A DNA stretch of 32,644 nt from a virus: the IMG/VR virus record IMGVR_UViG_3300046804_002616, positions 1 to 32,644 of that record, one strand, 5' to 3'. Positions 2,098 to 25,769 of the stretch are shown piece after piece. The notes under the pieces were generated by a model. That model was not told the DNA's origin. It searched no databases and was given only the letters and a program-made list of their open reading frames with translations. How positions within the stretch are numbered: position 1 is the stretch's first letter; each line of letters starts with the position of its first letter. The position numbers were made by a program, and so were the translations under genes.

Positions 2098-3327
2098 TCA
2101 AATCAATTCCTTGATAGCAGTTCCACCGTTTGCAATTTTCATGGGTCTACCATTTTTAGCGGTGTAACTTTTGTTCATATCCATACCAAGAGCCGAGCAA
2201 ACTGTTGCAACCAAATCTTCTGCTTGATAAGCTTTTCCATCTTTGATTGATTTTCCGTTTTCAGATGTTGAACCAATGGCTTGACCACCATTGATTAGAC
2301 CGCCAGACATAAATGCACTCCAAGTTGCTGCCCAGTGATCTCTTCCTGAATTTTGATTGATTCTGGGTGTTCTGCCAAATTCTCCCATCATCATAATAGC
2401 AACGTTATCCCAAAGATTAACACGCTTTAGATCAAGAATCAATGTTGATACAACCTTGTCTAGTTCTGGAAGCTTGGTGGACAAAGTTTCATGTGTGTCT
2501 TGGTGTAAATCCCAGCCACCAAAACCAATTTCCACAAATGGAACTCCAACCTGAACCAAACGACGCGCCATTAGGGCACTTCTTCCAAATCCAGTTGGTC
2601 CATAAGCAGCTAAAATTTCTGGGGATTCTTTTTCAAGCTTTGTAGCATCCATTTGCAGGCTTGTATTTAACTTGAGAGTTCTTTCATACAGCTTTTTGTG
2701 TTCTGTGGGTATTTCTCCTCGATTGGTTTTAATAAACTGATCTTCAATCAATCCCAGCATGTCTAGCTTGCTTCTAGACAGATTTGCACCAAGGTTTTGA
2801 ACATTTCCATTAGAATCTAAAACAAATGGGTCGTAAGCAGCACCAAGAAATCCTCCGCCAATACTTCCAGTGTTTATAGAAAAGAATGGGGGAATTTCTA
2901 AGTCTTCTCTTTTTGATCCAATTTCATAAGAAACCACAGAACCTAAAGAGGGGTGCATTATAGTTGGGCTTGGAATAAACCCTGTATGAAGATAATAATC
3001 TCCACGCATATGATCTCCCTCTCGCGTAGACATTGTTCTAACAACTGAGAAGTCTTTTCCAAGCTTGGCTAACTCAGGCATATATTCACTAATCTGAAAG
3101 TCTCCAGCAGTGTTTATAGGCTTGTGCGGACCACCTTCTTCGGTTCCCGGCTTTAAATCCCACATATCTATAGTTGGGGGGCCACCGCCTAGCCAAATAA
3201 GAATTGCGGCTTTTTGGTCTTTACGAAGTTTTAATGAATTTTGAATAATATCCTGACCAAAAGCATATGATGTAGATGCTAGAGCGGTAAGCCCACCAAC
3301 ATGTTGTAGAAAGTGTCGTCTGTCCAT
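2098..3327 (-). CDS. DUF1501 family exported protein, copy 1
   Basis: This 409-aa protein starts MDRRHFLQHVGG..., a twin-arginine (Tat) signal with a hydrophobic stretch and likely cleavage near SYAFGQ. DUF1501 proteins resemble the alkaline phosphatase/sulfatase superfamily and are abundant in Planctomycetota; their substrates are not established. Family hallmarks seen are LIWLGGGPPTIDMWDLKP near residue 45, GGWDLHQDTH in the second half, and GEFGRTPRINQNSGRDHW, whose Asp, His and Arg residues are probable metal or anion ligands. Length and motif order look complete. It is the last gene before the hairpin element and follows a ferritin-like gene by 12 bases. Base composition matches the neighbours, so it does not look freshly acquired. 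A second DUF1501 gene is at 5014-6285. Location: exported, inferred from the signal. Confidence 0.85.
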   Translation of the reverse strand: MDRRHFLQHVGGLTALASTSYAFGQDIIQNSLKLRKDQKAAILIWLGGGPPTIDMWDLKPGTEEGGPHKPINTAGDFQISEYMPELAKLGKDFSVVRTMSTREGDHMRGDYYLHTGFIPSPTIMHPSLGSVVSYEIGSKREDLEIPPFFSINTGSIGGGFLGAAYDPFVLDSNGNVQNLGANLSRSKLDMLGLIEDQFIKTNRGEIPTEHKKLYERTLKLNTSLQMDATKLEKESPEILAAYGPTGFGRSALMARRLVQVGVPFVEIGFGGWDLHQDTHETLSTKLPELDKVVSTLILDLKRVNLWDNVAIMMMGEFGRTPRINQNSGRDHWAATWSAFMSGGLINGGQAIGSTSENGKSIKDGKAYQAEDLVATVCSALGMDMNKSYTAKNGRPMKIANGGTAIKELI

Positions 3328-5013: not shown

Positions 5014-6285
5014 TTAAATAATAATTTCTTCGATGACCTTACCAAAGTCTACTATTTCAATAGGACGTTCGCCCGGAGCCATAAGCTCTTTGTCGGCATT
5101 TATTCCCAATTGATGGTAAATTGTTGTGGCCCAATGTGGAATTTCAACTGGGTTTTCATCTGGCTCTGAACAAGTTGCGTTTGACGAACCATATGTAATA
5201 CCAGCTTTAATTCCGCCTCCAGCCAGTATTGAACTAAATACTCGCGGCCAGTGATCTCTGCCAGCAGTTCCGTTTATTTTTGGAGTTCTACCAAATTCAG
5301 AAACCACACAAACCAATGTTGAATTTAACAAACCTTTCTCAGATAAATCTTCGATAAGCGCTGAAAACCCCTGATCAAACGCTGGCATTTGACCATTAAT
5401 ACCATTTGCGATATTATCGTGCATATCCCAGCCGCCATAAGTTAATGTAATAAATCTAGCTCCAGCTTCAGCTAGTCTACGGGCTAGGAGCATCCTTGCT
5501 CCCGCCGTATTTCTTCCATATTTGTCTCTTGTTTCTGGAGATTCTTGATCTAGCTTAAATGCTTCTTGAGCATGTGTACTTGCAATTAAATCATAAGCTT
5601 TTTCATAGAAAGAATTCATAGCTTTAACAGAATCATCTTTATTTTTCTGTAAAAACTTTTTATTCACACTCTCAAGAATATTTTGTCTTTGTCTAAATCT
5701 ATCATAATCAAGGTTGTTTGTCAAGTCCCTGACTTTGAAATTTTGATCAGCAGGATCAGAACCAAGGCTAAATCCAGCAAAAGAATTGCTTAAATAACCA
5801 GTTCCAGCAAATTCATTTGGTTGATTTGGAATACAAATATACGGAGGAATACTGCTTCGTGATCCAAACTCATGAGAAACAACAGCGCCAATAGAGGGGT
5901 ATTGAATCGCTGGACTTGGACGATATCCAGTAAAAACATTGTGCGCTCCGCGTTCGTGAGCAGCTTCTCCGTGTGTCATACTACGAATTATAGTTAACTT
6001 ATCTGTAACTTTAGCTGTTTTAACCAGTTTTTCGTTAAGTAGTATTCCTTCAACCTTTGTCTGAATACTGTTCATTGGCCCACGGTATTCAATAGGAGAA
6101 AGGGGTTTTGGATCAAAACTCTCTTGAGCCGCAATTCCTCCCGGCAAATAAATAAATATGACGCTTTTTGCTGGCCCCTCAGAACTTTTATAATTCTTAA
6201 TTTCTCCAAACGCTGAATTTACACCAATTGCCCCAAGGGCTGTGGCTTGTATAAAACTTCTTCTGCCAATATAAGCGTCAAACAT
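5014..6285 (-). CDS. DUF1501 family exported protein, copy 2
   Basis: This 423-aa protein starts MFDAYIGRRSFIQATALGAI, a Tat-type signal with cleavage likely after NSAFG. Family motifs are VIFIYLPGGIAAQESFDPKP near residue 45, HGEAAHERGAHN, GGWDMHDNI, and SEFGRTPKINGTAGRDHWPR. These align in order with copy 1 (2098-3327), but the sequences are well diverged, so this is an old duplication or two separate gains. The metal/anion-site residues of the phosphatase-like fold appear kept in both. The ATG lies one base after the stop of the 61-aa membrane protein (GGGATTTAAAATG), which implies translational coupling. The substrate is unknown; an exported hydrolase acting on host envelope or sulfated polymers is a guess. 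Confidence 0.85.
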   Translation of the reverse strand: MFDAYIGRRSFIQATALGAIGVNSAFGEIKNYKSSEGPAKSVIFIYLPGGIAAQESFDPKPLSPIEYRGPMNSIQTKVEGILLNEKLVKTAKVTDKLTIIRSMTHGEAAHERGAHNVFTGYRPSPAIQYPSIGAVVSHEFGSRSSIPPYICIPNQPNEFAGTGYLSNSFAGFSLGSDPADQNFKVRDLTNNLDYDRFRQRQNILESVNKKFLQKNKDDSVKAMNSFYEKAYDLIASTHAQEAFKLDQESPETRDKYGRNTAGARMLLARRLAEAGARFITLTYGGWDMHDNIANGINGQMPAFDQGFSALIEDLSEKGLLNSTLVCVVSEFGRTPKINGTAGRDHWPRVFSSILAGGGIKAGITYGSSNATCSEPDENPVEIPHWATTIYHQLGINADKELMAPGERPIEIVDFGKVIEEIII

Positions 6286-12616: not shown

Positions 12617-13025
12617 TTTGTTGTCTCCATAAATCAATATTATCTGAATATTTTAATTCGATAAGATTGATATTATTTATTTCACACCATTCTAGTTTAA
12701 TTTTATCTCTACGTTTAGACATAGCAAATTCAGCTTTTGATTTATGAAAAAATGGAATATACTCGTAATGTTGCTGTCCATGAACTTCAACCCCAAGCAT
12801 AGCACTTGGTATCAAAAAGTCAAGAAATAAAACAGATTTTTTACTGGGAAATCTTGATCCGGGTAATTTTACTTCTTCGAGAACAGAATATCCACTAAAA
12901 ATTTCTCTCAAAAGATTTCTAGCAGCTATGTGATATTTTGATCTCTTCTTTGAATCATCTTCTCTAACAATATATTTACCCAGATCAAGAATATATTCCT
13001 TCTTGTTTAAACCTTTTACTTTCAT
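12603..13025 (-). CDS. Small PD-(D/E)XK-like endonuclease
   Basis: This 140-aa protein has FLDFLIPSAMLGVEVHGQQH, then FHKSKAEFAMSKRRDKIKLE, then WCEINNINLIELKY. The Asp, the Glu-x-His in VEVHGQQH and the later RRDKIKLEWC resemble the compact PDDEXK nucleases found in phages (DUF559/Vsr-like layout: acidic strand, ExK-like strand replaced by ExHGQQH, then xxDxxKxxWC). The role may be repair or recombination, given the adjacent recA. It overlaps recA's stop as ATGA and its own end overlaps the next gene. A Vsr-type mismatch nuclease is the main alternative. Confidence 0.6.
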   Translation of the reverse strand: MKVKGLNKKEYILDLGKYIVREDDSKKRSKYHIAARNLLREIFSGYSVLEEVKLPGSRFPSKKSVLFLDFLIPSAMLGVEVHGQQHYEYIPFFHKSKAEFAMSKRRDKIKLEWCEINNINLIELKYSDNIDLWRQQIECR

Positions 13026-15148
13026 TTTACAGATAGAATCTCTTTAACGTTGTCATAAAGAAGGTCTCTGAGTTTTTCATTCTTCTCAAGGAAATCTGAC
13101 AACTTTGACATACCTTGGAACTTAAACAGTTTTTCAACTGCTTCGTCGTCTGAAACCTCAACGTTGTTATCTTTTATAACCTTTAAGACAATTGGGTCTG
13201 TCTTGTTTTTAATCGCAAACTTAATAGTATACCAAGCTCCAGCTTTATCTATTAGTGAAAAATCAATTGCCGACTGAGCAACTTCTTTGGTTTCATCAAT
13301 TCCAATTCCATACCTAATCCAACTTTCAGTTGTTGTGTTTGGAATTCCACCAGCAGCAGAAGTTTTAATAATCCAGTTTGCTACTTGACCAATTTCTCTT
13401 TGGTCACTATCTGTTTCCCACTTTCCACGGTGGGTAATAACCATATTTGTCCCAGCTTGATACTGAACCATGTTTCCAGAGTCTGCCATCTTTGTTGGAC
13501 TCCATTTACTGCCGCCAGTATTAGCAATGTTATGCAAGATAAATATTACAATAGCTCTGTTTCTTGCAACATCTCCGCTAATACGTTTTAGAAACATGGA
13601 CATCAATCTTGGTAAAGCATTTCTAACGCCAGTTCTAATTTCTCCTTCGAGTTCCTCTTGCGGAACCATATTTGAGACAGAATCTACAATTCCAACAAAA
13701 TTTGGAGTTCCTTTAATATGCGCTTCTAATGCGTTTAAATACATTTCAGCAGACACAACCGGTGTTTTATCTGAAGGTTGAACAATCTTAATATTGTCAA
13801 TATCCAAGCCTTTAATACCTTTAAAGTTTTCCTTTGTTAGTCTACCTTCTGTATTAAAGTAATAAATTTTCTTTCCAACTTTTTGGGCTTTCGAAGCAAA
13901 GTAAAGTGCCGTTGTTGTATTGTGAGTAACATTAAAACTATCAGTTAAATAAAGATGATCTGGATGATCAATAAAAATACATTGGGTTTCTTCTTTTCTA
14001 ACAAGTTCAACTTTTCTTATAGTTTTAAATAATTCTGACTTTGTTTGTCTTGAACTAAATCTTTTACGATTAATTTTAAATAACTCATTAATATCGTTTC
14101 CAGATATACATAGCCTGAAAGACTTAAATTCTTTTCCGTTACGCTTAGTGGTTCTTTCTTTTGTTTTAACCATGTATCCAAGTGATCTTAGTAATTCTGA
14201 AACATGAATACTCAAACCGTACGAAACTGTGCTGTATTCTGCTGACTTACCTTTGTTATTGTAACCGTCAGTGTCCATCAATCCACGAATTAATTCAAAT
14301 CTATGATTTATAGATGAATAAAGATAGTGTTGTGGTATAAATTTTGAACTTGATTTTTTGCCCATAAGATTTAAAGTTCTTAACTTATTAGTTAAGTTAT
14401 TAACATTATTAGCGTGTCCAACTATAGAGTAGTCATATCTAGACTTGTGATGAATTTCTAAGCCATTGCTATTAGCGTAATTCTTAAAGGCTTGTAAAAT
14501 TTCATCGTCTGCTGTAGTGATAATAGGAGTTCCTTGTAACAGTCCTCCGTCTCCAATTAAACATCCTAGTATATACGGGTCTATTTCAAGGTTTTTTGCA
14601 TTAAAATAAACGGGTTTACACATAGGGATTTTCCACTTTGGTCTATCATTAGAAAATAAACCTTCTTCTATTATTTGACTCAATGGAAGAACTAACCATT
14701 CATCATTTCTTCCGTCATAATTTTTACAAACTTTCCATAGATGATCTATACCGCATTCAGCAAATGTCCCATCATTAAATGATACTTTGTAAACATCTTT
14801 TAATCCTTGTGGATAAATTCCTTTTACTTTTGCGATTCCGTCTGGAGTACAAACTAAATCTGCAATTTTTAACGAACCCATTTTAACTGGTCCGTCTGGA
14901 GTGTAAACCGTTGCAGACAAAGGTTGATCCTTACCAGTCTTAGGGTCGCCAGTCATAATTACGCAACTTCCCTCGCGCAATCCGCCCCCAAGCGCTATAT
15001 CTAGATTTGGAGAAATACCAATAACATTATAAGTTTCCAAATCTGCAAGTACCTTTGATCCTTCTTCAATGATATCTCCGTATTTTGAGCATATTTGATT
15101 GCTTACAATATCATCGTCGAATTTTTCACTCTTCTTTTTTGCCGCCAT
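13022..15148 (-). CDS. recA: RecA/UvsX-type recombinase with an in-frame intein
   Basis: This 708-aa precursor would give a 371-aa recombinase after removal of a 337-aa intein. The extein opens with a RecA core (GISPNLDIALGGGLREGSCV, then GDPKTGK at 67-73). It resumes at T411 (TTTALYFASKAQKVG), so the P-loop GDPKTGKTTT exists only in the spliced product. Later come FVGIVDSVSNMVP (Walker B region), ILHNIANTGG and SGNMVQYQAGTNM (L2-like loop). It catalyses strand exchange in phage recombination and repair. It sits in a cluster with the helicase, primase and nuclease-like genes. The next gene overlaps its stop (ATGA). Expression without splicing should yield no ATPase activity. Confidence 0.92.
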   Translation of the reverse strand: MAAKKKSEKFDDDIVSNQICSKYGDIIEEGSKVLADLETYNVIGISPNLDIALGGGLREGSCVIMTGDPKTGKDQPLSATVYTPDGPVKMGSLKIADLVCTPDGIAKVKGIYPQGLKDVYKVSFNDGTFAECGIDHLWKVCKNYDGRNDEWLVLPLSQIIEEGLFSNDRPKWKIPMCKPVYFNAKNLEIDPYILGCLIGDGGLLQGTPIITTADDEILQAFKNYANSNGLEIHHKSRYDYSIVGHANNVNNLTNKLRTLNLMGKKSSSKFIPQHYLYSSINHRFELIRGLMDTDGYNNKGKSAEYSTVSYGLSIHVSELLRSLGYMVKTKERTTKRNGKEFKSFRLCISGNDINELFKINRKRFSSRQTKSELFKTIRKVELVRKEETQCIFIDHPDHLYLTDSFNVTHNTTTALYFASKAQKVGKKIYYFNTEGRLTKENFKGIKGLDIDNIKIVQPSDKTPVVSAEMYLNALEAHIKGTPNFVGIVDSVSNMVPQEELEGEIRTGVRNALPRLMSMFLKRISGDVARNRAIVIFILHNIANTGGSKWSPTKMADSGNMVQYQAGTNMVITHRGKWETDSDQREIGQVANWIIKTSAAGGIPNTTTESWIRYGIGIDETKEVAQSAIDFSLIDKAGAWYTIKFAIKNKTDPIVLKVIKDNNVEVSDDEAVEKLFKFQGMSKLSDFLEKNEKLRDLLYDNVKEILSVK
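13919..14929 (-). other. Class 3 (WCT) intein with LAGLIDADG endonuclease, in RecA P-loop
   Basis: The intein spans residues 74-410 of the precursor. The left edge is set by restoring the Walker A motif, which makes the first residue Asp (DQPLSATVYTPDG) rather than Cys, Ser or Ala. The triplet that defines class 3 inteins is visible: Trp in block B (DHLW, W138), Cys in block F (QCIFID, C390) and Thr in block G (VTHN, T408). The +1 residue is Thr411 and the intein ends HN. In class 3 inteins the block F Cys makes the first acyl shift. Two dodecapeptide motifs, LGCLIGDGG (194-202) and RGLMDTDGY (288-296), both keep an acidic residue, so the homing endonuclease may be active. Confidence 0.85.
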
Positions 15149-21092: not shown

Positions 21093-21378
21093 TTAGTATC
21101 CAATCATACTTAAATGGGATGTCTGGAAAACTATCAAGTTCTAAGACGCCTCCCGTACTTGATAAATCAATGGCAGACAGCGACAAAGAAAATGTTACAA
21201 ACTTTTTTAGTGTTACCGTTGGTTTGTTTTTTGGAAAAGATATCTTTACGGATTCATTCGAAACAGAAATATTTACATCTGTTGGATTTTGCATTTTAAT
21301 ATTTAGGTTTGGTATTTGCAAGCCCTTTTCCGAAAAAAGGGATTTAACTTTTTCCAAAATGTCTTGTACATCTATCAT
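21085..21378 (-). CDS. Hypothetical beta-rich protein
   Basis: This 97-aa protein starts with a helix (MIDVQDILEKVKSLFSEKGL) and continues as alternating beta-like segments (NIKMQNPTDVNISVSNESVK, then TVTLKKFVTFSLSLSAIDLS). There are no cysteines, signal or family I recognise. ATGA overlap with the thioredoxin-like gene and 8-base overlap with the membrane protein gene indicate one operon. Confidence 0.5.
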   Translation of the reverse strand: MIDVQDILEKVKSLFSEKGLQIPNLNIKMQNPTDVNISVSNESVKISFPKNKPTVTLKKFVTFSLSLSAIDLSSTGGVLELDSFPDIPFKYDWILNE

Positions 21379-22037
21379 TTTATCACCTGTTTTAATTTAC
21401 TCAGCATAGCATCTGAGTTGTAATACCCGGTATAAGTTTGTATTGGCGTACTGAGATTATCAGATTTGAACAGTAAAATTGTTGGATAATTCTTAACTTT
21501 AAAATAAGAAAAATATTTTTTGTATTCTTGGTTTTCTTCTTCGAACGTATAAAGTTTTATCTTTTCTTTGTCAAAAAAATTTTTAACATCTTCATTTTGC
21601 CAAGTGTTTTTCTTTAACAGTTGGCACGGTCCACACCAGTCTGCCCCAAGATGATAAATTACATATTTATATTTTTCAGAAACCTTGTCGCTAGTTTTTG
21701 CTTCAGGTTCTGATTGTTTAATAACTGGCTGTTCAACCTGTTGAATTTGTTCGGGTTCTTGTGTTTTTGTTTTTGAACAATTGCAAGTGCCCGGACATGG
21801 ACAAGGTGTTTTATGACCGTCTCCATGAATAATAACTTTGGTTCCACCGCATTCGCATTTTGATTCATTGTTTTTATTGTTTTGCTTGTTTTCTTCATTT
21901 ACCACAAAAGCTATATAACCTTCGTTTCTAACAGCATCAAACGCAAAAGCTTTTTTTGTTGTTGGAAATTGTATTTTGTCAATAGGAGCAGTAGATATTA
22001 AAAATATCGACAACACTATAAACGAGGATAATTTCAT
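21375..22037 (-). CDS. Secreted thioredoxin-like protein with Cys-rich motif
   Basis: This 220-aa protein has an N-terminal signal peptide (KLSSFIVLSIFLISTAP) and then a motif CECGGTKVIIHGDGHKTPCP followed by CPGTCNC, with six cysteines that could bind a metal. A Gln/Glu/Pro linker leads to a thioredoxin fold from about 125. The active site is WCGPC in HLGADWCGPCQLLK, then YPTILLFKSD with the cis-Pro. It would act outside the cytoplasm as a thiol oxidoreductase. The HGDGHKTPCPC pattern also occurs, in my memory, in other phage proteins. TAATG junction with the peptidase gene. Reduction of the extracytoplasmic peptidase or of host proteins is a guess. Confidence 0.7.
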   Translation of the reverse strand: MKLSSFIVLSIFLISTAPIDKIQFPTTKKAFAFDAVRNEGYIAFVVNEENKQNNKNNESKCECGGTKVIIHGDGHKTPCPCPGTCNCSKTKTQEPEQIQQVEQPVIKQSEPEAKTSDKVSEKYKYVIYHLGADWCGPCQLLKKNTWQNEDVKNFFDKEKIKLYTFEEENQEYKKYFSYFKVKNYPTILLFKSDNLSTPIQTYTGYYNSDAMLSKLKQVIK

Positions 22038-24088
22038 TATATAATCCTTGTGTTGATTGTTCTGGGTTTAAAACCTTCATAACCACTAAATGCCCAGCAG
22101 TCTCCAGTTTTAAGAATTCTTCGCTCAAGTTCTTCTGCGTCAACCCAAAACGATCCATCTGGTTGATCATTGCGCTTTGGTCCAGCTATCCAGTTTGCTC
22201 CCCAACTATTTTGTATCAATGCTCCGGGACGCTTGTATTCATCGTCTACGCCCAGAATACTCATTTGATGACCCCACGAGCCTTCTGGTTTAGAAAATCC
22301 CTCAGAATCTCTAAACTGTGAAAACCCTTGGTTGCTTGCAATAGTCACCGCGTAACCATTACAAATCAAGTCTCTTACTTCTTCATACGAATTAACTTGA
22401 GAAATAGTTATTACTGAGTGTTGTTTTTCTATTTCTAGAAATTCTGGAGGTAGTTGGTATCCTGCTTTTCCCCATGCCTTGGCTCTTTCGCCGCTATAGT
22501 TTGTTAGATCAACACCTCCGTATTTTCCTCTGGCTACACATCCGTATTGATTCACATATTTTGCAGCCCAAACACCAAGTGAGCCATCTTCGTTACCAAG
22601 TTGACCTTTTCCAATTATATTTCTGCTGCCCCAATAAATATCTTCTGTGGCACTTTCAGACACCCATTCTTCAAAATCCTTGTTGATATAAATATCGACA
22701 GCTTTAATGGCATCTACTGCATAAGCAGCGCCCATAGAAACACAGTTATGTATTCCATAACCATTACATATAAACGAGTGATCTTCTTCTACTCCTATAC
22801 AATATACATGATCAGTTTCTGGTTCAACTATTTCTATTTTAGATATTCTTGCCGCTCTACCATATTTTGTGATCTGTTTTTGATTTATTTTTATATCAAG
22901 AGATTCTTTGGTTAAAGTATCTAATCCACAAAATACATTAAGTGAAAACGATTCTTTGCTATGTTTATAAGCTTTTCTTTTTTGGATAGAACAGTTTATG
23001 TCGATAGAATTTGCTATTTGAAACATGTCATATATTAAATCTTCTGAAACAGAAACTCCTACTCTATTTTTCCACCCATCCCCGTCCATCCATCCAGATA
23101 AAATTTGGAGTTTGTTTTGTTTAGTAGTTATTAATAGACTTTTATCTAATTGTTTATTATAAACATTACCAGTGCATAATTTATTAAATAATGAACTAAT
23201 AATATGATTTTGAATTCTTACATATAATACTGATGGTTTTGATGGAACTGAAGATATAATAGCATCAAAATCAAAAATATCTTTTATGTAAGATTTTATT
23301 TTATTTGCCAATAACACTTCTTTGGACGATAAATTAAAAGTAATTCTTCCATTATCTATTCCTCCTTCTGCGGCGTATATACCAATTAACCAACAAAGCT
23401 TTTCATCTAAATTAATAAATCTATTTATTTCTTTAGAAGAACCTTTGCTTCTTATTTTTCCAGTAGATACTTTTGATGTTCTTAATTTTTTAAAGTCAGA
23501 TTTGTCAGTTATACATTCTGAATATAAGTCGTTTAGATCATACTTGTATTCATTTAGTGATGGGAGTTTTGGTAATAGGACATAATCTCCTTCGTTTAAA
23601 GCTGCTATAGCTTTCCATTCTATAGTTGACTTATCTCCTTTTTTACCTCTCCCGATATTTGGAAGATACATGTACAGGTGATCAGGGGTAGATTCTATTG
23701 GTTTTTTATAACCAGAAACATAAATTCTAACCATTTTTTTGTTATATGGCTTTTTTATAAAATCTATAACTTTTCTAGTGTTTCCATAAGGAGTTAATAC
23801 ATAGTCTCCTATTTTTATATCTTTTATCTGTTTTTCAGACCCGTCAAACATTCTAACCATAGAAGATGGATTTTGACAATCTCCAATTTTCTGGAGTCTT
23901 ATTGGAAAAGTTCCCGCTACTTTTCTAATGATGTCATACAAAAACATTTTTTTGTTTTTGCCAGAGTCTTTAAAGTCTGCTATTTCTTTATATATACTAG
24001 AAAATACAGGGATGGGAAGATCACCCATCGCTTTTTCTACAAGCGGCGGATCGTCAACCCATCCACATAGATGTGTATAATCATTCAT
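22037..24088 (-). CDS. Papain-like (C1) cysteine peptidase with an in-frame intein
   Basis: This 683-aa precursor yields about 305 aa after excision. The extein has LQKIGD before the junction, then CVSMGAAYAVDAI (nucleophile C449). Later it has GSWGHQMSILGVDDE (catalytic H607) and LIQNSWGANWI (N627), the Cys-His-Asn triad of papain enzymes. The Gln of the oxyanion hole is probably Q66. There is no signal peptide. Starts: an upstream TTG at 24115 is possible, but the ATG at 24088 has GAGG upstream and overlaps the previous gene's stop as ATGAATGA. Neighbours are small exported or membrane proteins. Roles in phage egress, tail or head maturation, or attack on host proteins are all open. Confidence 0.85.
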   Translation of the reverse strand: MNDYTHLCGWVDDPPLVEKAMGDLPIPVFSSIYKEIADFKDSGKNKKMFLYDIIRKVAGTFPIRLQKIGDCQNPSSMVRMFDGSEKQIKDIKIGDYVLTPYGNTRKVIDFIKKPYNKKMVRIYVSGYKKPIESTPDHLYMYLPNIGRGKKGDKSTIEWKAIAALNEGDYVLLPKLPSLNEYKYDLNDLYSECITDKSDFKKLRTSKVSTGKIRSKGSSKEINRFINLDEKLCWLIGIYAAEGGIDNGRITFNLSSKEVLLANKIKSYIKDIFDFDAIISSVPSKPSVLYVRIQNHIISSLFNKLCTGNVYNKQLDKSLLITTKQNKLQILSGWMDGDGWKNRVGVSVSEDLIYDMFQIANSIDINCSIQKRKAYKHSKESFSLNVFCGLDTLTKESLDIKINQKQITKYGRAARISKIEIVEPETDHVYCIGVEEDHSFICNGYGIHNCVSMGAAYAVDAIKAVDIYINKDFEEWVSESATEDIYWGSRNIIGKGQLGNEDGSLGVWAAKYVNQYGCVARGKYGGVDLTNYSGERAKAWGKAGYQLPPEFLEIEKQHSVITISQVNSYEEVRDLICNGYAVTIASNQGFSQFRDSEGFSKPEGSWGHQMSILGVDDEYKRPGALIQNSWGANWIAGPKRNDQPDGSFWVDAEELERRILKTGDCWAFSGYEGFKPRTINTRII
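22745..23878 (-). other. Class 1 intein with LAGLIDADG endonuclease, before the catalytic Cys
   Basis: The intein covers residues 71-448 (378 aa). It begins with Cys71 (CQNPSSMVRMFDGSEKQI), has a block B of the usual type (STPDHLYMY, T134 and H137), and ends GYGIHN with penultimate His447 and Asn448. The +1 residue is Cys449, which is also the peptidase nucleophile. The endonuclease domain has LIGIYAAEGGI (234-244) and LSGWMDGDGW (330-339), two LAGLIDADG motifs. The first reads AAEGG, with Glu in place of Asp, as in several active enzymes. It differs from the class 3 intein in recA both at the termini and in block B. Confidence 0.9.
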
Positions 24089-24533
24089 ATTTAGTTGCCT
24101 CTGATAAATCTTCAAAGATTTTAGCGAATGCTTTTCTTTCAGATTGAGTTTTTAATTCCTTTGGTTTGTCGTAACCAACGGATATAAGATATTCAGAAAC
24201 TCTGTCTGTGAATTTTGGATACTTTTCTCTGCTCCATCCGTAAGATGTTTGAACTTTTTGTAAAATTGGATCAAACTGAGAAGTAGTTCCAATAAAAACT
24301 GAATTATTTAAATATTCAGCAGAGCCAGAAAAAAGCTTGTGAATAACAAGTTTATCTTCTTTAGATTTAATGTTAGAAAATTCCTGTGCTACCTTTTTGA
24401 TAGAGTCAGAATTGACTACATTGTTTATTGGTGTAGTATCTTTAATTGGTGTTTGAACTTTTACATCGCGACCAAAAGCTAAATACAAACACAGACACAA
24501 AATTATTGTGATACAAAAATTATGTTTGTGCAT
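24081..24533 (-). CDS. Signal-peptide/membrane-anchored hypothetical protein
   Basis: This 150-aa protein opens MHKHNFCITIILCLCLYLAF, a signal peptide or N-terminal membrane anchor with three Cys. Then come a Thr/Asn linker and a helical domain (VAQEFSNIKSKEDKLVIHKL, then SQFDPILQKVQTSYGWSREK and KFTDRVSEYLISVGYD). No family is recognised. It overlaps the upstream membrane protein by 14 bases and the peptidase start by 8 bases. The context (peptidase, holin-like, PAS) suggests an envelope role. Confidence 0.55.
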   Translation of the reverse strand: MHKHNFCITIILCLCLYLAFGRDVKVQTPIKDTTPINNVVNSDSIKKVAQEFSNIKSKEDKLVIHKLFSGSAEYLNNSVFIGTTSQFDPILQKVQTSYGWSREKYPKFTDRVSEYLISVGYDKPKELKTQSERKAFAKIFEDLSEATKYE

Positions 24534-25190: not shown

Positions 25191-25769
25191 TTATTCTCCG
25201 CTTAAAAAAGAAATGTGAATTAAAAATCCTCCATGACTATTTTCCGCAGTTTTATACGGATATCCTACTAATTTTATTTTTTCATCTTTATCGTTGTATG
25301 TTTCAAATTCTAATTTTCTACACATCTTTAAACAAGAGTTAAATTCGTGTAAAAAATTTTCTCTTTGATCGGCCCGTATATAACTAATCCAATCATAACC
25401 TTCCATATCAGACTGTGACTGACCAGTTAGTTCGTAAAACTTTTCGTTTATCCAAATCAAGTGACCATTTTCATCTGTTTCAAACAAGGCGTTGTCGTTG
25501 TAATGAAGAGAAGATTTTGATCTTTGTTCTATAATTTTCTGTGTTCGTTCTATGCGCTCACAGGTGCTTTTTAATGAATTAACAGTATCTTTAATAGATT
25601 TTCCACCGTTTGTAGTTACTTCTTTTTTTATTGTTTCAAGAGAACTTTTAATATCTTTATTGTCTTGACTTATATTCGTTAAAGGTTTTATTAACTTGTT
25701 CCAAGCAAAAACCAATGCGGTTATAAGGTAAGCAAGTATCTTAACAACACTATTCCAGTCGATATCCAT
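25191..25769 (-). CDS. Membrane-anchored PAS-domain protein
   Basis: This 192-aa protein has a transmembrane helix at residues 9-30 (VKILAYLITALVFAWNKLI), then a long coiled-coil-like stretch (residues 33-83, with several Glu/Lys heptads) and a PAS domain at 92-190. The PAS region includes ALFETDENGHLIWINEKFYE, then LTGQSQSDMEGYDWISYI and FLIHISFLS at the end. PAS domains sense small molecules, light, redox or partner proteins. No kinase, GGDEF or other output domain is present, so it is a bare sensor or a scaffold. The ATG has GAGG upstream. The next gene on this strand is the holin-like gene (1 base between). Confidence 0.75.
   Translation of the reverse strand: MDIDWNSVVKILAYLITALVFAWNKLIKPLTNISQDNKDIKSSLETIKKEVTTNGGKSIKDTVNSLKSTCERIERTQKIIEQRSKSSLHYNDNALFETDENGHLIWINEKFYELTGQSQSDMEGYDWISYIRADQRENFLHEFNSCLKMCRKLEFETYNDKDEKIKLVGYPYKTAENSHGGFLIHISFLSGE

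Follow-up and report, generated by a model that had tools for sequence, protein, structure and literature searches.

A probable homing class 1 intein at the putative active-site cysteine of a papain-like peptidase encoded by a virus genome

Organization of the peptidase precursor gene and its intein

The DNA analyzed here (the window) comprises the 32,644 bases of an IMG/VR virus record, and its minus strand carries the gene of a peptidase precursor interrupted by an intein. The open reading frame as listed (22037-24115, minus strand) begins with TTG, while the ATG at 24088, which overlaps the stop codon of the upstream gene by 4 nt, gives a product of 683 aa. The gene comprises the following features:

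22037..24088, minus strand: gene of the peptidase precursor (683 aa when begun at the ATG), overlapping the upstream gene by ATGA
23879..24088, minus strand: N-extein, 70 aa, ending with QKIGD; junction set by empty-site homologues
23891..23893, minus strand: codon of Gln66, the putative oxyanion-hole Gln by analogy with papain; Gln in 82/82 homologues
22745..23878, minus strand: class 1 intein, residues 71-448, 378 aa, CQNP...GIHN; from sequence, homologues and intein models
23876..23878, minus strand: codon of the intein Cys1, residue 71; from sequence
23678..23689, minus strand: TPDH, block B of the splicing domain; read from sequence
23363..23392, minus strand: LAGLIDADG motif 1, WLIGIYAAEG; read from sequence, identical in the second carrier (L003)
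23075..23101, minus strand: LAGLIDADG motif 2, LSGWMDGDG; read from sequence
22745..22750, minus strand: last two residues of the intein, His and Asn; from sequence
22742..22744, minus strand: codon of Cys449, +1 splice acceptor and predicted peptidase nucleophile; from sequence, homologues and model
22037..22744, minus strand: C-extein, 235 aa plus the stop codon, containing His607 and Asn627 of the predicted triad; from sequence and homologues
22268..22270, minus strand: codon of His607, predicted catalytic His; His in 82/82 homologues
22208..22210, minus strand: codon of Asn627 of the NSWG motif; Asn in 79/82, Gln in 3/82 homologues

The assignment of the intein to class 1, proposed in the initial annotation, is supported by Cys1 (shared with the four other alleles described below), the block B TxxH motif (TPDH), the penultimate His, the terminal Asn and the Cys at position +1, the GIHN end being followed directly by CVSMGAAYA. 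The intein scored 20.9 bits with the NCBIfam model intein_Cterm (cut-off 15.6) and 34.0 bits (E 3e-8) with Pfam Intein_splicing (cut-off 35.8). Two LAGLIDADG motifs with acidic residues (AAEG and GDG) are readable in it, and with Pfam LAGLIDADG_3 it scored 16.9 bits, below the cut-off of 22.5, whereas the intein of L003 scored 30.2 bits, above it.

A search of IMG/VR with the C-extein retrieved 17 loci. Intein-free homologues with the same junction, which the initial annotation had proposed to look for, were found among them, as L002 and L006-L016 read Q[KT]IGDCV uninterrupted; the distant L017 and L018 also possess an empty site. L003-L005 represent a second carrier, in which another intein occupies the identical position (QKIGD/CLNG...VHN/CVAFG, slashes marking the junctions); it is 51% identical to the window intein and shares with it C1, TPDH and HN/C. 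Since the empty-site homologues and the second carrier agree, both splice points are fixed by comparison, beyond the motif alone, and the intein limits and the numbering of Cys449 given initially are correct to the base. The empty-site homologues display the sequence expected for the product of splicing, the splicing and ligation reactions themselves being predicted.

The window intein scores slightly below the Pfam cut-offs, as might a decayed intein, or Hint domain, which has lost splicing and left the peptidase gene dead. We consider such decay very improbable, as C1, TPDH, HN and Cys+1 are intact, the long frame is open, the triad is kept in the exteins, intein_Cterm is above its cut-off, and in both intein and extein dN is far lower than the saturated dS.

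Catalytic residues and fold of the peptidase

The catalytic residues were assessed in 82 diverse intein-free homologues, k-mer-filtered from 124 distinct trimmed sequences. The columns of Gln66, Cys449 and His607 are invariant in all of them, the Gln column lying five residues N-terminal of that of Cys449, and the Asn of NSWG is replaced (by Gln) in three. An AlphaFold model of the homologue L002, which is 75% identical to the window C-extein, was built with the 82-row alignment and reached a mean pLDDT of 93.0 and a pTM of 0.92, compared with a mean pLDDT of only 40.6 for a 5-row alignment. Cys25 of papain opens the long helix of that enzyme; in the model of L002 the predicted nucleophilic Cys is likewise the first residue of a long helix (73-93). 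The first PDB matches of this model in Foldseek were xylellain (E 6.1e-11) and then cathepsin B, and its VIA-align superposition with xylellain (3ois) gave Z 23.3 and an rmsd of 3.1 over 239 residues.

The searches at the sequence level were less productive. The Pfam Peptidase_C1 model scored 13.2 bits (cut-off 20.7), and PDB sequence searches gave no firm match (1cqd at E 0.13, 2vhs at E 0.0042), so the fold assignment rests on structure comparison and the protein is best described, from its fold and triad, as a papain-fold relative that by score is no member of Pfam C1. The C-extein matched no record in INPHARED, and PHROGs assigned no family to the five homologues tried. Thus, the peptidase resembles xylellain and cathepsin B (papain family C1) in its modelled fold and in the Gln-Cys-His-Asn arrangement, but differs from these intein-free enzymes in sequence (~18% identity) and in its score below the Pfam cut-off.

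The C-terminal motif GDCWAFS, the local resemblance of which to the papain motif is visible in the alignment with 1cqd, offers another candidate nucleophile. Its Cys column, however, holds Cys in only 7/82 homologues and Ser, Ala or Thr in the other 75, and it is the equivalent of Cys449 that takes the place of papain Cys25 in the model; this candidate was rejected as hardly credible. The initial identification of Cys449 as a papain-type nucleophile is therefore well supported by the Cys in 82/82 homologues and by the papain fold of the homologue model.

Predicted splicing and latency of the precursor

The arrangement is best explained by the in-frame insertion, between Asp70 and the predicted nucleophile of the phage papain-like peptidase, of a mobile class 1 intein that bears its own putative LAGLIDADG homing endonuclease. 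Splicing, as judged from the intact motifs, would start with an N-S shift at the intein Cys1, after which the acyl group of the N-extein would pass to Cys449, the Asn would cyclize and a final S-N shift would follow. In the branched intermediate the thioester would thus be formed on the very Cys449 sulphur that later makes the acyl-enzyme. This predicted route is alike to the canonical class 1 splicing described, in the accessible text, for the SufB intein of Mycobacterium tuberculosis, with its Cys1 and Cys+1 (PMC8891592), the host of which is, in contrast, an Fe-S assembly protein of another family and no peptidase.

In the precursor the Gln belongs to the N-extein and all three triad residues (Cys, His, Asn) to the C-extein, with 378 residues between them. 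The intein directly adjoins the residue that opens the catalytic helix, and the amide of Cys449 is bonded to the intein Asn. Because the active site is split in this way, we strongly infer that the precursor is catalytically dead. Latency before splicing would be a built-in by-product of this anatomy, any regulation of it or selection for it being putative.

Intein alleles in the peptidase family

Altogether, five intein alleles were revealed in the family, four of them (window, L003, L248 and L251) at the GD/C site and one (L250) beside the catalytic His; Cys1 is present in each. The inteins of the window and L003 form one type, and those of L248 and L251, which are 37% identical mutually and 21-23% identical to the window intein, form a second. 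The intein of L250 (394-1506, minus strand; the same gene as L064) lies directly after the catalytic His (WPH/C...HN/CMLF) in a position where empty relatives read WPHCMLF, its +1 residue is a non-catalytic Cys, and it is 26-27% identical to the second type, so that a single enzyme family bears inteins of one type at two of its active-site motifs. What is new here is that the GD/C site is common to two intein types of distant kinship, that a relative of one of them sits directly after the catalytic His, and that further relatives, in other phages, precede the presumed catalytic Cys of C5-methyltransferases, thymidylate synthase and NrdA. The extein offers 35 possible +1 residues (5 Cys, 21 Ser and 9 Thr); given this number and the occupation of GD/C by four alleles from both types, the choice of Cys449 exceeds chance. 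The endonuclease motif of L251 reads GNG instead of the GDG of the other alleles, and its endonuclease may be inactive.

The distribution of the inteins is sporadic. In a quick extein tree of 113 rows, in which L251 and L017 form long branches and the placement of L251 is unsure, the five alleles require five changes. Carriers are closely related to intein-free proteins: the extein of L003 is 92% identical to the empty L006 and that of L248 is 90% identical to the empty L047, and the DNA flanks of carriers and empty relatives align right up to the junction.

The scans gave 178 ORFs of the family from as many loci (many from the same contig, the window twice), of which nine entries contain an insert, namely the window (2), three L003-type contigs (6) and L064 (1), counts that are not a frequency, since some pattern scans span the insertion site and others sought inteins on purpose. 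Patterns across the insertion site, used for part of the 178 ORFs and for the 27 loci of the genome_contigs set, miss inteins at GD/C; no insert was found in any of these 27 loci (one of them partial). The family occurs in 14/392 genomes of the Blastopirellula phylum as open frames of 302-493 aa, with no split match. Junction scans gave six loci for HNCV[SA]WG (the commonest subclade), none in the peptidase family, and four for HNCV..GAA (the three L003-type contigs and L242); a wider scan gave eight (the same three contigs, L242, L244 and three unrelated loci), and a scan with the L248 intein found its own contig only.

Conservation of the insertion site and constraint on the intein

Among 238 seven-residue segments of the peptidase, QKIGDCV ranked first in both protein and nucleotide conservation (0.719 vs a mean of 0.503), the ranking having been made without five of the 82 rows, in which the stored protein differs from the plain translation (the residue counts given above use all 82). 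The insertion site is best explained by homing, because nowhere in the gene is the DNA more conserved than around the catalytic Cys, and this sequence also supplies the Cys that such an intein requires at +1. The segment at the His site of L250 ranked 55 and 24 of 238, that is, outside the top, so conservation alone cannot account for every site.

In the comparison of the window and L003 inteins, 90/176 residues are conserved in the endonuclease part and 56/107 in the splicing part, with dN of 0.46 and 0.42, respectively; as dS is saturated, no dN/dS ratio is claimed. On these sequence data the two parts are equally constrained.

Related inteins in other phage enzymes

The L248 intein matches 41 phage records. 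In 5 of the 12 loci that were read, the +1 position falls on a putative catalytic Cys: four are C5-methyltransferases (P1 Dmt, Mannheimia 587AP2, Nyseid and Lana) with the intein right before this Cys, and the fifth is the thymidylate synthase of Aeromonas PS1 (TP/C...HN/CHF). In P1 and PS1 the identity of the host domains is confirmed by Pfam. An NrdA-like gene of an Enterococcus phage, annotated as hypothetical and adjoining a reductase gene, has an intein before a putative active-site Cys of a YVSC motif; in NrdA of PTm5 the intein begins at such a Cys, and neither there nor in one NrdD was the intein end found. We take the Cys that follows the intein in the C5-methyltransferases, thymidylate synthase and NrdA to be catalytic, judging by their motifs. 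The remaining four loci differ, encoding two polymerases, a helicase and a portal protein; in two of them the +1 residue is Ser or Thr. The inteins of P1 Dmt, Nyseid, Lana and the PS1 thymidylate synthase thus resemble that of the window in lying directly before a presumably catalytic Cys and are related to the L248 type; unlike it, they reside in other enzymes, and they are only distant kin of the window intein.

In phage P1 the dmt gene appears to contain a LAGLIDADG intein (L257 1501-2523, OP279344.1; GGTP/C...HN/CQAFS) before the C5-methyltransferase Cys. It scored 25.9 bits with intein_Cterm, above the cut-off, and our literature search found no mention of it. In Mannheimia phage 587AP2 (L256 1231-3100) the methyltransferase frame breaks soon after a similar intein; the annotation divides the gene into two CDS, beside which lies an HNH endonuclease.

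According to the accessible texts, inteins often reside in active sites (PMC5784728; PMC7765530), and in phage proteins several intein insertions fall in active centres (PMC5050341). The mycobacteriophage cases of the latter work (TerL, TOPRIM, RDF and others) are similar to ours in being phage-borne, placed in the active centre, of homing-endonuclease type, sporadic and derived from several independent insertions, but their hosts are nucleic-acid enzymes, while here a cysteine peptidase is interrupted and the +1 residue is its predicted nucleophile. Our searches of the PMC library found no natural intein in a papain-like peptidase. Taken together, these loci suggest a countable rule, namely that class 1 inteins land preferentially at a catalytic Cys in phage enzymes unrelated to one another, P1 Dmt included.

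Gene neighbourhood of the peptidase

In relatives the peptidase belongs to a block consisting of a small membrane protein, a small protein with a hydrophobic N-terminus, the peptidase itself and a thioredoxin-like protein with a signal-like N-terminus. The block is kept with or without the intein, so nothing in it visibly depends on the latter. A special link between the intein and the thioredoxin-like neighbour was considered and rejected, as this neighbour is there without the intein too. In the window the thioredoxin-like protein is encoded at 21375-22037 (minus strand) and bears the conserved motif HGDGHKTPC[PQ]C. The product of 25191-25769 (minus strand), kept in several relatives, combines an N-terminal hydrophobic stretch with a PAS-like domain (E 9e-6, slightly below the cut-off).

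Homing element or zymogen switch

The initial annotation regarded the intein as a possible automatic zymogen switch. The part of this idea that concerns anatomy stands, the active site being incomplete before splicing; the adaptive part, according to which the intein is kept to delay or gate, maybe in response to redox state or temperature, a peptidase harmful early to the host or the phage, we consider unlikely in view of the scatter of the alleles, the constrained endonuclease and the similar sites elsewhere. It can be said in favour of such a switch that the architecture makes splicing obligatory for activity, that GD/C hosts two intein types which are only distant kin, with a third allele next to the catalytic His, and that conditional splicing is reported for other inteins in the accessible texts (PMC6195587, PMC5790916). 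Against it are the sporadic presence with five changes in the tree and near-identical intein-free relatives, the same gene neighbours with and without the intein, an endonuclease as constrained as the splicing domain, and similar placement in enzymes that need no zymogen. The sporadic presence argues against the switch being necessary, and regulated splicing is possible but unsupported. In its accessible part, a 2014 review was aware of no conditional splicing of physiological relevance and considered inteins to be probable parasites (PMC4031507). The broader notion that the catalytic Cys is a general attractor of class 1 inteins, which through the shared Cys would make activation obligatory and perhaps tuned and would have been retained repeatedly, in two types at GD/C and once beside the catalytic His, to keep a harmful phage peptidase latent early in infection, seems improbable likewise.

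We therefore favour, with a probability of about 0.8, a homing class 1 intein that landed at the active-site Cys, the latency being its by-product. Related phages that lack the element, or bear others at this spot, point to a mobile parasite of the gene's most conserved part more than to a switch evolved for the purpose. This reading is supported by the confirmed junctions, the invariant Cys, Gln and His, the five changes, the empty relatives at 90-92% identity and the constrained endonuclease, with splicing, peptidase and endonuclease activity as predictions. Counting against homing are the LAGLIDADG_3 score of the window intein below the Pfam cut-off, the L250 site outside the most conserved segments and the GNG motif of L251. 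The significance of the locus lies in a natural peptidase whose nucleophile should double as splice acceptor, and the intein-free relatives at 90-92% identity make an active-site intein as a zymogen latch directly testable.

Putative host and other features of the window

Most of the 27 genome loci belong to Planctomycetota records. The peptidase copy of Blastopirellula marina is identical to that of a virus record and lies ~2 kb before an ORF reading like a large terminase. Proteins of the DUF1501 family are frequent in planctomycetes. A planctomycete host is thus likely for the virus. The window itself encodes a DUF1501 protein (E 4e-88) and a second one similar by eye (2098-3327 and 5014-6285, minus strand), both with a twin-arginine-like start and unusual as phage cargo. 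The segment 32045-32554 contains genes of tRNA-Gly, tRNA-Leu and tRNA-Gln and then tandem repeats of AGATG (12.8 copies) and GATCTA.

A second intein of 337 aa (13919-14929, minus strand), within the ORF 13022-15148, interrupts the P-loop of a RecA-like protein (GDPKTGK/DQPL...VTHN/TTTAL). It starts with Asp and contains DHLW, QCIF and THN, a combination which we take to be the class 3 signature, and it probably represents a class 3 intein.
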